Source: Crocinitomicaceae bacterium TMED16 (GTDB taxonomy: Bacteria > Bacteroidota > Bacteroidia > Flavobacteriales_D > Crocinitomicaceae). From it: DNA of 45,445 nucleotides. The DNA lies in contig NHBV01000013.1 of NCBI GenBank assembly GCA_002167775.1, positions 58,237-103,681 on the forward strand, given 5' to 3'. The translations under genes and the position numbers were made by a program. Below, piece after piece: positions 31,984 to 37,008 of the stretch (position 1 is the first letter of the stretch; the number at the start of each line of letters is the position of its first letter). The notes beneath the pieces were generated by a model. The model had not been told where the DNA came from, ran no database searches, and saw only the letters and a list, made by a program, of their open reading frames with translations.

Positions 31984-34236
31984 ATGTATAACCCAACTAA
32001 ATCAGACATTCCAAAGGAAGGGTTTTTAGGTTTCAAGGAGAACTGGAGAAATGATGTTATTGCCTCACTCAGTGTAGCCCTTGTTGCCTTGCCCTTATCA
32101 ATGGCTATCGCCATAGCCTCTGGTGTTCAGCCATTGTCTGGACTTCTATCGTGTGTGATTGCAGGTCTGGTTACAACCTTTTTTAGAAGCGGAAGGTTAA
32201 CCATTAATGGTCCTGCAGCAGGAATGATTACGGTTATCTTTGGTGCAATTGTCTCATTAGATGATGGAAGTGGACATGCCTTTAATTATGTTTTGGCTGC
32301 TATTGTAATCTCAGGTCTTTTACAAGTGATTCTTGGCCTATTAAAGCTTGGGCGTATTGCAGAAATCTTCCCATCCTCCGTAATTCACGGAATTTTGGCC
32401 GCGATTGGCGTTATTATTTTTGCCAAACAAATGCACGTAGCAATTGGAACAAGTTCAACCGCAGGAAACGCCATAGGTATTTTAAAAGACCTTGTTGATC
32501 AATTGCCCAATGCAAACCCTTACATTGCTCTTATTTCTGCTATTGGTGTTTTTTTACTGTTTTTTCACGCAAAAATAAGCTACAAAGTTTTCCATATTAT
32601 ACCTGCTCCAGTGTGGGTCGTAGCAATTTCAGTTTCCATAGTCTTGTTGTATAACTATCTGGATTTAAATCAAGTCGAGGTAATGGGTATTGCATTTGAA
32701 AAGCCAACAAATTATTTAATGTCCATTCCTTCGGACCTAACAGAAGTGTTTTTATTTCCCGATTTCTCTCGAATTAACAGCGGTGTGTTTTGGATGGTCG
32801 TTTTGTCTATGACAATCATATCATCAATTATAAGCTTAGCTGCTGCCAAAGCCATAGATAAACTTGACCCTTACAAAAGAAAAACCAATTTAAATAAGGA
32901 TTTAATGGGCTTAGGTGCAAGCACAATGGTTTCTGGAATGCTTGGCGGTCTTCCTATCTTAAATGTAATTGTAAGAAGTACAGTGAATGTTCAAAACAAT
33001 GCAAAAACAAAATGGTCAAACTTTTTTCATGGGTTTCTTGTACTATTCTTCATTGTCTTGCTTCAACCGATAATGAACATGATCCCTTTAGCTGCATTGG
33101 CTGCGGTTCTGGTTTTTGCCGGAATCAAGCTTGCATCTCCAAGAGTATTTAAAGATGTTTATAAAGAAGGAGTTGAGCAGCTTGTTTTCATGGTGTCCAC
33201 CCTACTTTTCACTTTATACAATAATCTATTATTTGGTCTAATTGCAGGTATCATTATTACATTAATTACACATATTCTTATTGCTAGAATATCAGTCCCT
33301 CAATTTTTTCTTTATGTATTTTCCCCAGGGAATATAGAGTTCAAAAAAACAAATGAGAATTTAGAGTTGCGTATTCGCGGTGTTGCCAACTTTATGACGC
33401 TGCTCAAAATATTAAAAAAATTGGAGGAGGTGCCTGCTAAATCAGTCCTAAAAATTAACTTTTCTGGCGCCAAAATAATAGACCTCACGGTACAGGAAGC
33501 AATTGACGACTTCAAACGGAACCATGAACTTTCAGGTGGAAGTGTAGAAATAGTAGGGCTTCATAAACATGTTTCCTCTACCCCACACAAATTCGCATTA
33601 AAGAGTAGTATTGCACCTGTTGCGCAAAAAGCATCTCCGCGGCAGAATAAGTTCAAGTGGCTTGCATCTGAACATAAATGGACATATACTTTGGGACAAG
33701 ACAATGGTTTCAAAAACCTTGAAAGTTTTCATTTTTTCGACTCTAGACCAATTGAGTACAAAGAAAACATCATCAAAGGGGCCTACCTCGATGGAGCAGC
33801 AGACTGGGAACTTACCGATGTTACTTTTTCTGAGGGAGCGATGCTCGCAAGGGAAGTATACCATTGTACCGTCCAGATTTCAGACTTGCCCTTTAAGGCG
33901 CCAACATTTGTCTTACGTAGAGAAGAATTCGTGGATCGATTTATCGATCGCGTTAGGGTTTTTGGGTCTATGGGAGATATTGATTTTAAAGAAAATCCAG
34001 AATTCTCAAAGTTCTATTTCTTAAAAGGAGCAAATGAATCCGAGATACGGGCCTATTTTAAACCGGAGGTGTTGGAGTTTTTAGTTGAAAATCCAGTTTA
34101 TCATATAGAATGTAATGGTGAAAAAATTCTAATTGTTGGACCAGTTGGTGTTACTAGTATTCCAGACATCGAAAGACAAATTCAAACGATGGCAGAGCTC
34201 ATCGGTATTTTAAATGATTTTCACGGAAACGGTTAA
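31984..34236 (+). CDS. SulP-family anion transporter with STAS and extra C-terminal domain
   Basis: This is a 750-residue protein. Residues about 20-440 are the SulP membrane domain, with WRNDVIASLSVALVALPLSM, the helix-3 segment INGPAAGMITVIFGAIV and FPSSVIHGILAAIGVIIF. A STAS domain follows at about 448-528 (KINFSGAKIIDLTVQEAI). The remaining 220 residues (about 529-750) form a soluble domain absent from standard SulP proteins. It has segments such as YFLKGANESEIRAYF and ILIVGPVGVTSIPDIERQI. The substrate may be bicarbonate or sulfate. It begins 66 bp after gpmI. Confidence 0.88.
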   Translation: MYNPTKSDIPKEGFLGFKENWRNDVIASLSVALVALPLSMAIAIASGVQPLSGLLSCVIAGLVTTFFRSGRLTINGPAAGMITVIFGAIVSLDDGSGHAFNYVLAAIVISGLLQVILGLLKLGRIAEIFPSSVIHGILAAIGVIIFAKQMHVAIGTSSTAGNAIGILKDLVDQLPNANPYIALISAIGVFLLFFHAKISYKVFHIIPAPVWVVAISVSIVLLYNYLDLNQVEVMGIAFEKPTNYLMSIPSDLTEVFLFPDFSRINSGVFWMVVLSMTIISSIISLAAAKAIDKLDPYKRKTNLNKDLMGLGASTMVSGMLGGLPILNVIVRSTVNVQNNAKTKWSNFFHGFLVLFFIVLLQPIMNMIPLAALAAVLVFAGIKLASPRVFKDVYKEGVEQLVFMVSTLLFTLYNNLLFGLIAGIIITLITHILIARISVPQFFLYVFSPGNIEFKKTNENLELRIRGVANFMTLLKILKKLEEVPAKSVLKINFSGAKIIDLTVQEAIDDFKRNHELSGGSVEIVGLHKHVSSTPHKFALKSSIAPVAQKASPRQNKFKWLASEHKWTYTLGQDNGFKNLESFHFFDSRPIEYKENIIKGAYLDGAADWELTDVTFSEGAMLAREVYHCTVQISDLPFKAPTFVLRREEFVDRFIDRVRVFGSMGDIDFKENPEFSKFYFLKGANESEIRAYFKPEVLEFLVENPVYHIECNGEKILIVGPVGVTSIPDIERQIQTMAELIGILNDFHGNG

Positions 34237-34251
34237 GCCCATGGAAATTTG

Positions 34252-35361
34252 ATGACCCGAAAAGGACTTATTAAGCACTTACTCCTAGCTTTAACAATGC
34301 TAAGTTTTATCATTTCATGTGTCCCCATGAAAAGCATATTTCTTGGACACCCAGACAAGAAGGACGCTTCCCGATTTCGCTCAAATACAATCGATCCACA
34401 AAAAACAAACTTTCAATTCAAAAAACGAACAAGCAACCCAATCATTAAGATTAATGATTGGACAAGTGACCTTCCAGAATTCAATACGCTTCAAGAGCTC
34501 TGTGAAAACCATGAAGTTCGAGAGCTGCTCATTATTAAAAATGACACCATTCTCTTTAACTATAAAAAAGGTTTAAAGCAGGAATTGCATAGCTCCTACT
34601 CCATGTCGAAATGCGTCGTTTCTTGTCTTATTGGAATGGCCATAGACGACGGATTCTTAGAAAGTGAGCATCAATATGTCAAAGGATATTTACCTGAATT
34701 AATTCAAAATAATAATTCAGCTCAACTTCAAATAAAACATCTCCTAAACCATACCTCTGGAATTAAAAGCTCAATGGCGATGGATGGACGAATGTATTAT
34801 GGGAATGATATCCAAAAAGAAATAGAAAAAATCCGGTTTATACGCGCCCCGGGTAAGCAGCAAGAATACCTGAATATAAATACACAACTATTAGGAATTA
34901 TATTGTCAAAGGCTGTTGGTAAAAGTATAAGTGAATACGCTAAAGAACGACTATGGCATCCCATTGGAATCAGTAATGAAGTGATCTGGTCAACAGATAA
35001 AAAAGGAATTGAAAAAGCCTTTTGCTGCATTTCGGCAAGCGCATTGGATTATGCCAAATTCGGAAGACTTTATCTCCATAGAGGGTTGTGGAATGACAAA
35101 AGATTGCTGAGCGAATATTGGTATGAAGAATCCATCAAAAGAGATACAAGCGATGGAAGTAGCTTTAATTTTAATTACTCTTGGCATTTAGGACTTAAAA
35201 AATATGGGGATTTCATGGCCATTGGTTTGTATAAACAACACCTTTATATTTATCCCGAAAAAGGAATTATTATCGTCCTCAACAATGACCGAGAAAATAA
35301 ACTTGAGGCTGAACGCGTTAATTGGTGGAATGTCTTTCGACAAATCTCAGATCAACTTTAA
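34252..35361 (+). CDS. Serine hydrolase (beta-lactamase class C fold), lipoprotein
   Basis: This 369-residue protein has a lipoprotein signal (FIISC, Cys23). The S12-type fold shows the SxxK motif SYSMSK (Ser117, Lys120) and YLNIN (Tyr206 and Asn210) in the second motif position. A WHLGLKKYGDFMAIGLYKQ region stands in for the KTG-like strand. Relatives include esterases and D-aminopeptidase or carboxypeptidase-like enzymes; the substrate is unknown. The ATG at 34252 is preferred over a TTG one codon upstream. The gene converges on the small unknown gene at 35372. A paralogue lies at 35776-37008. Confidence 0.82.
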   Translation: MTRKGLIKHLLLALTMLSFIISCVPMKSIFLGHPDKKDASRFRSNTIDPQKTNFQFKKRTSNPIIKINDWTSDLPEFNTLQELCENHEVRELLIIKNDTILFNYKKGLKQELHSSYSMSKCVVSCLIGMAIDDGFLESEHQYVKGYLPELIQNNNSAQLQIKHLLNHTSGIKSSMAMDGRMYYGNDIQKEIEKIRFIRAPGKQQEYLNINTQLLGIILSKAVGKSISEYAKERLWHPIGISNEVIWSTDKKGIEKAFCCISASALDYAKFGRLYLHRGLWNDKRLLSEYWYEESIKRDTSDGSSFNFNYSWHLGLKKYGDFMAIGLYKQHLYIYPEKGIIIVLNNDRENKLEAERVNWWNVFRQISDQL

Positions 35362-35371
35362 TGAATATATT

Positions 35372-35779
35372 TTACTTTATGATAATACCCTGAAGACCCA
35401 AGGAAGAAATCAAGCTCATATTGGGCTCTGAAATTGATTCGGCGGGAAATACAAAACGTTTATCGTACATGACTCCATCCACCCAAAAACTCACCCAGTA
35501 TTCATTAGACAAACCAAAAACTTCCGGCATAATCGGTTCTATTTTAGCAGCTTCATTAGGCAAAAGAACTTCTATGGTATGCCTAAGGGTTGAGGTTCTT
35601 ATGGTCTCACCCGTTTGTGTATTTTCACCGTAACCTGTGCTTGCGATGATAATACCTTCCATTATATCATTCCTGCTACTCAATAAATAGGCATAATAAC
35701 TCAATTCTCCTTCAACTGTAGATTGAACGATTGCAACAGCAACGTTTTCAACTTTAGGGCCCTTTATACTTTCTTTCAT
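35372..35779 (-). CDS. Conserved Bacteroidota protein of unknown function
   Basis: This 135-residue cytoplasmic protein has no signal or membrane segment. The segments VAVAIVQSTVE near the start, IIASTGYGENTQTGETIRTSTLRH in the middle, and AKIEPIMPEVFGLSNEYWVSFW with DKRFVFPAESI near the end match a short Bacteroidota family that I know only as hypothetical. Composition suggests an all-beta or alpha-beta fold. The start overlaps the end of the serine hydrolase gene by 4 bp. It is the last gene of the carboxylase-isomerase-lipB cluster. Confidence 0.75.
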   Translation of the reverse strand: MKESIKGPKVENVAVAIVQSTVEGELSYYAYLLSSRNDIMEGIIIASTGYGENTQTGETIRTSTLRHTIEVLLPNEAAKIEPIMPEVFGLSNEYWVSFWVDGVMYDKRFVFPAESISEPNMSLISSLGLQGIIIK

Positions 35780-37008
35780 TTCTGCATTCGTTCTGCGACA
35801 ATACGGTCTGCAATCTTTAAATATTCAAACAAATCAACTGTATGGCCAAGTTTTTCGTCATTTTTGACCCTGAAAGAACTATCCATAATTTTATCTGAAG
35901 GGATTTTATAATGTGGGCCTCTCTTTTCACCTAAGCGAACAATAACTCTGTTTTTATTTGGTACTACAATGATATATTGACCTTTGAGGCCGCGAAAATA
36001 ATGTACAGGATTCCCTTGATTTTTATATGTCCAGATATGCCAGCCATAGCGCATATTTGAGACATCATCATCTGTCGTTAGATATGGGGTTTTAACCATC
36101 TCAGTCAAGAATGATTGAGAAATAATTTGGTTTCCATTGAAGTTTCCATCATTTAAAACCAACTGACCAAGAAGAGAAAAGTCCCTAGCTGAAGCGTATA
36201 AACAGCAGAAAGCTTTTTCATCTCCTTCTTCCCTGTCAAGACTCCAATAAGCATTGCTGCTAGCACCTATTGGCTCCCAAATTTTCGTGTGCATATATTC
36301 TGTTAATGTAACACCTGTAGCCTTCTCCAAAATAAAACCTAAAATCTGTGAATTGCCACTTTGGTAATGAAACCGCTTACCAGGTTCTTCCACCATTCTT
36401 AATCTTGTAACTAAACCATATAGATCCGACCCATAATAACCCTCTGCGGCCTCGGATAACGGGTTTTTTCCGCTCTCCTCCCAGTCAAAGCCAGCAGACA
36501 TCAACAACAAATGACGTATCGTTAAAACATCACGACCATTGGTTTTGAATTCTGGTAAATAATGAAAAATGGGTTCATCAACGCTTGCAATCTTACCTTC
36601 CTCTATAGCGATTCCGATAAGCAAGCCGATAACAGTTTTTGAAGCAGAGAAGGAATTTGATACTTGATTTACAGAGTGTTCTTCCCAATACTGCTCATGC
36701 AATAGGGTATCATTCTCGAACACCAAAAAAGCACGTGTATCAATGCTGCTTAAGTATTCCTCTTCGTTTTCTGTAAGCACTACATTTTGTCCTGACTTCA
36801 CCTTTAGATCGTTCGGTGTGGTTGATTTTTCAACTGTATTTACGGGAAAAACATCTAGATCATAAATCCCTGGGGCCGTTTTACCAATTAAATACGTTTT
36901 ACTTATACCGGAATACAAATAAAATCGACCCGATAACAAAATGAAAAGGTTAACAACCAAAATAAGGGTTAAGGTGATGTAGGAAGCATACTTTATAAAT
37001 CTATTCAT
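35776..37008 (-). CDS. Serine hydrolase (beta-lactamase class C fold), membrane-anchored
   Basis: This 410-residue protein has an N-terminal membrane helix (about 9-27). The SxxK motif is SFSASK with Ser121 and Lys124, and the second motif is YQSGN (Tyr215, Asn219). A final strand motif FRGLKGQYIIVVP completes the S12 fold. It shares layout and several segments (APGKQ/EPGKR before the second motif, KAFCC) with the lipoprotein hydrolase at 34252-35361, so the two are paralogues. It likely acts outside the inner membrane; the substrate is unknown. It lies 17 bp after lipB. Confidence 0.85.
   Translation of the reverse strand: MNRFIKYASYITLTLILVVNLFILLSGRFYLYSGISKTYLIGKTAPGIYDLDVFPVNTVEKSTTPNDLKVKSGQNVVLTENEEEYLSSIDTRAFLVFENDTLLHEQYWEEHSVNQVSNSFSASKTVIGLLIGIAIEEGKIASVDEPIFHYLPEFKTNGRDVLTIRHLLLMSAGFDWEESGKNPLSEAAEGYYGSDLYGLVTRLRMVEEPGKRFHYQSGNSQILGFILEKATGVTLTEYMHTKIWEPIGASSNAYWSLDREEGDEKAFCCLYASARDFSLLGQLVLNDGNFNGNQIISQSFLTEMVKTPYLTTDDDVSNMRYGWHIWTYKNQGNPVHYFRGLKGQYIIVVPNKNRVIVRLGEKRGPHYKIPSDKIMDSSFRVKNDEKLGHTVDLFEYLKIADRIVAERMQK

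Follow-up and report, generated by a model that had tools for sequence, protein, structure and literature searches.

What is the soluble segment that follows the STAS domain of a SulP transporter in Crocinitomicaceae bacterium TMED16, and how might it serve a membrane transporter? The window, i.e. the whole stretch of DNA analysed (45,445 nucleotides), encodes a SulP protein that continues well beyond its STAS region (Table 1). The first-pass annotation had described the extra segment as a soluble domain starting at position 33565 and reaching residue 750. An additional domain does follow STAS, but position 33565 corresponds to residue 528, which still lies within the end of STAS, and the domain proper spans about residues 549-750 (window positions ~33628-34233), based on profile matches to relatives and an AlphaFold2 model. 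At the position of the weak PF01740 match, the full-length 750-aa model (pTM 0.66) shows an alpha/beta region. The STAS domain of SulP/SLC26 proteins lies on the cytoplasmic side, in contact with the membrane domain, and the extra domain is therefore expected to be cytoplasmic as well.

Table 1. Features of the SulP locus (positions refer to the window).
Feature	Position	Strand	Basis or remark
SulP transporter gene with predicted C-terminal TtfA-fold domain	31984..34236	+	ORF and translation, 750 aa
SulP membrane domain PF00916, residues 22-401	32047..33186	+	Pfam 213.7 bits, cut-off 23.2
STAS domain PF01740, residues 451-545, weak match	33334..33618	+	Pfam 18.2 bits, below the curated cut-off of 22.6
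Predicted TtfA-fold C-terminal domain, residues 551-750	33634..34233	+	AlphaFold2 model residues 7-206 aligned with 6t84, Z 17.8; alignment A3
Downstream serine beta-lactamase-like protein PF00144	34249..35361	+	Probably outside the SulP system; similar gene 3' of SulP in L005-L010, same genus

The annotated extra domain was indeed unplaced by the curated libraries used: neither Pfam nor NCBIfam, nor a sequence search of the PDB, gives a significant match for residues ~549-750, and a viral fold library returned nothing at E 0.001 or better for the C-terminal domain. A CX module (E 0.056 in a Pfam scan of the segment alone), trimethylamine dehydrogenase (a weak row at E 0.16) and 15 PHROGs, each hit by a single sequence among the 36 domain members (E 0.0046-0.1), were taken as chance. 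SulP proteins with an extra C-terminal domain are an already known kind. Among the matches listed for 99 genomes of the class, 15 SulP frames are at least 720 aa long, seven carrying the domain described here, four a beta-carbonic anhydrase (PF00484) and four a cyclic nucleotide-binding domain (PF00027). The latter two fusion types resemble the window protein in having a SulP membrane domain, a STAS region and then a soluble domain of ~190 residues, but their appended domains are unrelated to that of the window. The initial statement that SulPs either terminate close to STAS or have a carbonic anhydrase attached fits some of these proteins while overlooking both the PF00027 fusions and the present Bacteroidota architecture. 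Neither PF00484 nor PF00027 is matched by the window domain in Pfam, and both were rejected as its identity; the four real carbonic anhydrase fusions of the class match PF00484 at 7e-10 to 1.3e-53, and the reported lack of a beta-carbonic-anhydrase signature is borne out. Only an I and an E are invariant in alignment A3, with R, N, D, G, P, F and E nearly so, and no Cys or His is invariant. An undescribed enzyme activity on CO2 or bicarbonate that replaces carbonic anhydrase could be imagined, given that a neighbouring SulP clade has carbonic anhydrase at the same position, but it is highly improbable with A3 lacking an invariant Cys/His metal set and with no enzyme among the significant fold matches. 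Alongside carbonic anhydrase and cyclic-nucleotide domains, the domain appears to be a third type of C-terminal appendage in SulPs, and would occupy the site that those two take in other SulPs. The PF00027 SulP-STAS fusions form one clade in the class (L236:996-3206, L237:781-3000, L238:619-2811, L239:1039-3246). One carbonic anhydrase fusion (L234:831-3038) has a weak PF00484 part (39.8 bits) that, by eye, seems to be without the usual Cys/His residues; this part may be an inactive enzyme retained in a regulatory role.

The domain can be placed by its predicted fold. An AlphaFold2 model built with 36 sequences reached a pLDDT of 89.5 and a pTM of 0.86, and Foldseek against the PDB returned a single match within E 0.001, TtfA (6t84; E 1.4e-5, probability 1.00, TM-score 0.64 by query and 0.73 by target), with the next match at E 0.38. 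VIA-align superimposed the model on 6t84 with a Z of 17.8 and an rmsd of 2.8 Å over 170 of 178 residues at 12% identity. Below a second family of translocon chains, Z fell to 6.0 and less, including START-like lipid-binding rows at Z 4.1-4.6; all rows at Z 6.0 or below were discarded as they lie below the level that VIA-align treats as meaningful. The modelled structure is strong evidence that the C-terminal domain has the TtfA fold. When the PDB was searched with profiles A2 and A3, 6t84 was absent from the matches up to E 10, i.e. no sequence similarity to TtfA was detected. 6t84 was released in December 2019, which we take to be after the training set of the AlphaFold2 version used, so that the likeness should not be AlphaFold2 memory. 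Profile search and structure prediction, the route the first-pass annotation had proposed, thus gave no library match and a model matching TtfA 6t84; what could not be placed at first is absent from the curated libraries but can be assigned by predicted fold and, as described below, through distant DUF3137 kin.

TtfA (MSMEG_0736/Rv0383c) is a helper protein of the mycobacterial transporter MmpL3. The primary report describes a protein anchored in the cytoplasmic membrane, with an apparently cytoplasmic C-terminal part, that is essential, co-purifies with MmpL3 and is required for trehalose monomycolate transport; residues 1-205 suffice for MmpL3 binding and function, and shorter pieces fail both (PMC6593404). 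According to a review, the crystal structure has no obvious lipid pocket, and TtfA and MmpL3 may not be in direct contact (PMC7458404). The TtfA fold has been published as atypical. The window domain shares, by prediction, the fold of the TtfA cytoplasmic domain, and TtfA works on the cytoplasmic side in the service of a membrane transporter. However, TtfA is encoded separately, has a single N-terminal TM helix and partners the RND transporter MmpL3, whereas the window domain forms the C-terminus of a polytopic SulP behind STAS, and the two have no detected sequence similarity. To our knowledge, Bacteroidota make no mycolates. The fold also bears on the suggestion, made in the first-pass annotation, of a regulatory or ligand-sensing module. 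A regulatory role is still the best guess. Ligand sensing, in which the domain would bind bicarbonate, a nucleotide or a metabolite and gate the transporter as the cyclic-nucleotide domain presumably does, would suit the shared protein position with PF00027 in four SulPs of the class and the conservation of some polar positions (R, N, D, E) in A3. We consider it rather unlikely, since no ligand-binding fold is among the significant matches, the START-like rows ranking only lower (Z 4.1-4.6), and the matched TtfA fold has no obvious lipid pocket according to the review (PMC7458404).

The second family in VIA-align comprises three translocon chains (7tm3_4, 6w6l_7 and 9i78_4), the best at Z 9.3 and the other two at 8.4 and 8.3, to which a single model of the domain was aligned over 169-176 residues with an rmsd of 4.7-5.0 Å and 7-10% identity. 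All three are presumably CCDC47. For 9i78 this agrees with the aligned range of 99-370, given that the structure report describes a complex of SEC61, CCDC47, SND3 and TRAP in which CCDC47 residues 76-370 were docked as one body (PMC12572126). According to the same report, CCDC47 is a single-TM protein whose cytosolic domain, beside a membrane machine, binds the ribosome and SEC61 (PMC12572126). The window domain is aligned over its whole length at Z 8.3-9.3, but the deviation is large, the identity low, and CCDC47 is eukaryotic with a role in protein insertion; by VIA-align's own caution, moreover, models lacking any clear match often reach a best Z of 7 to 8. The likeness to CCDC47 of the modelled domain is treated as a lead only. 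It could point to a biogenesis or assembly domain that contacts the ribosome or insertase, or chaperones the folding of the multipass transporter, in analogy to the cytosolic domain of CCDC47 in the multipass translocon. CCDC47 being the second best structural family in three entries, and the contact of its cytosolic domain with ribosome and SEC61 described for 9I78 (PMC12572126), would fit such a role. It is nevertheless improbable, considering the rmsd of 4.7-5.0 Å, the existence of domain-less sister SulPs and the C-terminal location of the domain, which is hence made last.

The domain also exists as a free protein, a check proposed together with the original annotation. Searching genomes of the class with profile A2 brought up 16 free proteins, 199-280 aa long. 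L031 (209 aa), itself a member of A2, is matched at E 8.3e-18 by profile A1, which was built without it. By eye, L070 (231 aa) and L071 (224 aa) have one hydrophobic N-terminal stretch followed by the domain, a TtfA-like build, while L069, L072 and L083 have two such stretches; other free relatives are L073, L080 and L081. Using hhalign, A3 matched three groups of free proteins outside A3 at probabilities of 95.1, 96.7 and 95.5%, these groups having originally been found with A2 and thus chosen for likeness, and matched L070/L071, which are in A3, at 99.9%. The same 14 unrelated alignments used as controls stayed at or below 0.7% with A3 and 0.5% with the DUF3137 alignment A5. The 16 free relatives have no common partner among their neighbours by eye; L078 adjoins an RND efflux pair, and the L070 and L071 genes (L070:4295-4987, L071:4965-5636), which come from one genus and encode the hydrophobic N-terminus, are followed by an anmK-like gene by eye.

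Free relatives connect the domain with DUF3137. L080 is matched by A2 at E 6.7e-4 in its genome (4.7e-6 in a smaller frame set) and matches PF11335 (DUF3137) above the cut-off (29.1 versus 26.1 bits). A direct alignment of A3 with A5 covers 143 columns in collinear order at E 3.6e-4, but at a probability of only 37%, and neither the window domain nor any of the 12 A2 members matches PF11335 above its curated cut-off. The group F3 (L073, L080, L081) is matched by A3 at 96.7% and by A5 at 92.5%, while A5 gave only 1.2-2.8% with the other three free groups. As the likeness to A5 is high for F3 and low for A3 and the other groups, kinship with DUF3137 is likely but distant, and runs largely via F3. 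The TtfA fold would give a structural label to this family, which is connected with DUF3137 but absent from the curated libraries. Even common descent of TtfA, the SulP domain, its free Bacteroidota relatives, DUF3137 and CCDC47 might be envisaged, from a single ancestral cytoplasmic domain with a docking role beneath membrane machines that in Bacteroidota was fused in cis to an inorganic-carbon transporter, an idea we regard as tentative. If such common descent were true, the transporter-binding role of TtfA would become testable in one polypeptide and CCDC47 would gain a bacterial relative.

The C-terminal domain is under constraint. Over 199 codons, dN/dS is 0.027 between the window and its nearest relative, at an unsaturated dS of 0.55, and 0.022 and 0.019 against the second and third nearest relatives, where dS (2.4 and 2.7) is near saturation; these values cover the three nearest relatives, four more distant ones having no computable domain dS. 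The membrane part gave 0.007-0.013 against the same three relatives. Slower change is seen in the membrane part, which is 93-94% identical to L036/L037 versus 78-79% for the domain. A mere structural spacer without specific role could be suspected from the patchy occurrence in 9 of 61 genomes of the genus (the window's own counted), but is distinctly improbable with a dN/dS of about 0.03 and with the domain present in many genera, in a scan that selected for it.

Outside the genus, the domain was found in 2 of 39 other genomes of the order. Within the genus, SulP frames of at least 740 aa are confined to eight of the nine domain-carrying genomes; in the ninth (G052) the frame is cut at the contig end. 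A first profile gave matches in 9 of 395 genomes of the phylum (window genome counted), eight SulP fusions and one free protein (G275), and a wider profile, at an E cut-off of 0.01, found the domain in fused or free form in 34 of 295 genomes of the class. A pattern scan of genome contigs, which selected for the domain, yielded 364 pattern matches and 232 relatives, of which 80 loci were kept and examined. Homologous C-termini are present in 80 of 80 kept loci and the domain ends a 720-779-aa frame in 75 of them, so it is not a chance read-through. Among the remaining loci, three (L139, L154, L183) begin at the edge of the stretch examined and L134 has stops within the SulP frame. In a Kordia metagenome-assembled genome (L156:3378-5636), an in-frame stop near the domain start separates SulP from most of the domain, either a real split or a sequence error. 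The kept loci come from Flavobacteriaceae (Winogradskyella, Dokdonia, Kordia, Maribacter, Aquimarina and others), Saprospiraceae, Ekhidna and Bacteroidetes, all genomes and patterns used being from Bacteroidota, and the SulP fusion architecture is common in this phylum. The commonest neighbour clusters of 107 fusion loci, each named from one member, are M1 peptidase (15), metallo-beta-lactamase (14), Na/H exchanger (13), subtilase (13), LepA-like by eye (11), universal stress protein (9) and MiaE (7). The count of 107 is slightly redundant, as two locus pairs (L084/L122 and L184/L188) have identical C-termini. A gene-neighbour signature of the fusion was rejected, as the most frequent clusters look lineage-bound.

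The substrate of the transporter was approached through its SulP part. By sequence, the membrane part is closest in the PDB to 6ki1 (E 3.5e-28), an entry labelled low affinity sulfate transporter; with the whole protein as query, 5da0 ranks slightly ahead of 6ki1. We take 6ki1 to be BicA. Although this makes a BicA-type bicarbonate transporter the nearest PDB sequence to the membrane part, the protein scores 132.7 bits with the NCBIfam BicA equivalog model, far below its cut-off of 880, indicating generic SulP likeness and not membership. A midpoint-rooted tree was built from 86 N-terminal parts (first 480 residues), using 10 of 80 named loci and leaving out L244 (the same gene as L090), a partial L228 frame and fusion frames of 700 aa or less. 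All 39 fusion rows fall into one group together with six domain-less SulPs (99/98). An adjoining clade of 15 rows (99/97) contains all four carbonic-anhydrase fusions tested and the window genome's paralogue L003, while the four cyclic-nucleotide fusions are far from the window's group. The domain can be absent, as in the six domain-less SulPs of the same larger clade, a point against the reading proposed below. They sit in a nine-row subclade (L099, L222, L223, L225, L226, L229, L242, L029, L030) with three fusions (L029, L030, L099). A dabA gene (PF10070) adjoins seven of these nine rows, L226 and L099 being the exceptions, and five of the six domain-less SulPs are in dab loci. This suggests that SulP regularly accompanies the DAB system for inorganic carbon in Bacteroidota. 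Genes for dabA beside subclade SulPs are at L029:740-3235, L030:8549-11185, L248:7354-9843, L249:669-3170, L250:815-3307, L251:1350-3920 and L253:8909-11404.

In the window genome, the one PF00484 gene found overlaps the end of the SulP paralogue L003 by 16 bases on the same strand. The neighbouring clade with carbonic-anhydrase fusions, the dabA neighbours and this overlap place the clade in an inorganic-carbon setting. For the window's own branch the link is through kinship, since only 2 of 107 fusion loci have dabA in the flanks examined (carbonic anhydrase in 1 of 107) and no dabA (PF10070) was found in the window genome. Bicarbonate is most likely the substrate, as indicated indirectly by kinship and gene neighbours. 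In a quick tree of the domain, the three dab-subclade fusions group together (86, no bootstrap), which fits, weakly, a domain that is old in this subclade and was lost several times; it may also have been gained repeatedly. No free domain gene lies beside the domain-less sister SulPs in the stretches examined (L202-L247, L248-L253). The domain-less L003 gene (L003:518-2709, contig C40 of G000) is the one overlapped by the beta-carbonic anhydrase frame.

We lean towards the hypothesis that the domain binds a protein partner in the manner of TtfA and, being fused in cis, controls an inorganic-carbon transporter or docks it. If TtfA is a guide, the domain would act through protein contact. Fused to the end of STAS, it could pack on its own transporter or recruit a partner, and such packing or recruitment might set transport activity or location; the anion moved would be bicarbonate, judging from kinship and neighbours. 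With the predicted TtfA fold now seen on a transporter from a different superfamily, the fold may serve transporters more generally, and the fusion hints at shared control of membrane transport from the cytoplasmic side. It would also offer a single-chain system in ordinary marine bacteria for testing how the TtfA fold acts. In the open-access literature, with most subscription papers and bioRxiv's own holdings outside this scope, no paper was found that contains both SulP and TtfA, nor, in open-access papers, both TtfA and CCDC47; DUF3137 is named in two papers, each time once within a list, and SulP is mentioned in neither. Close to the 3' end of the SulP gene, the window encodes two PF00144 serine beta-lactamase-like proteins near each other on opposite strands, at 34249-35361 (+) and 35776-37008 (-).
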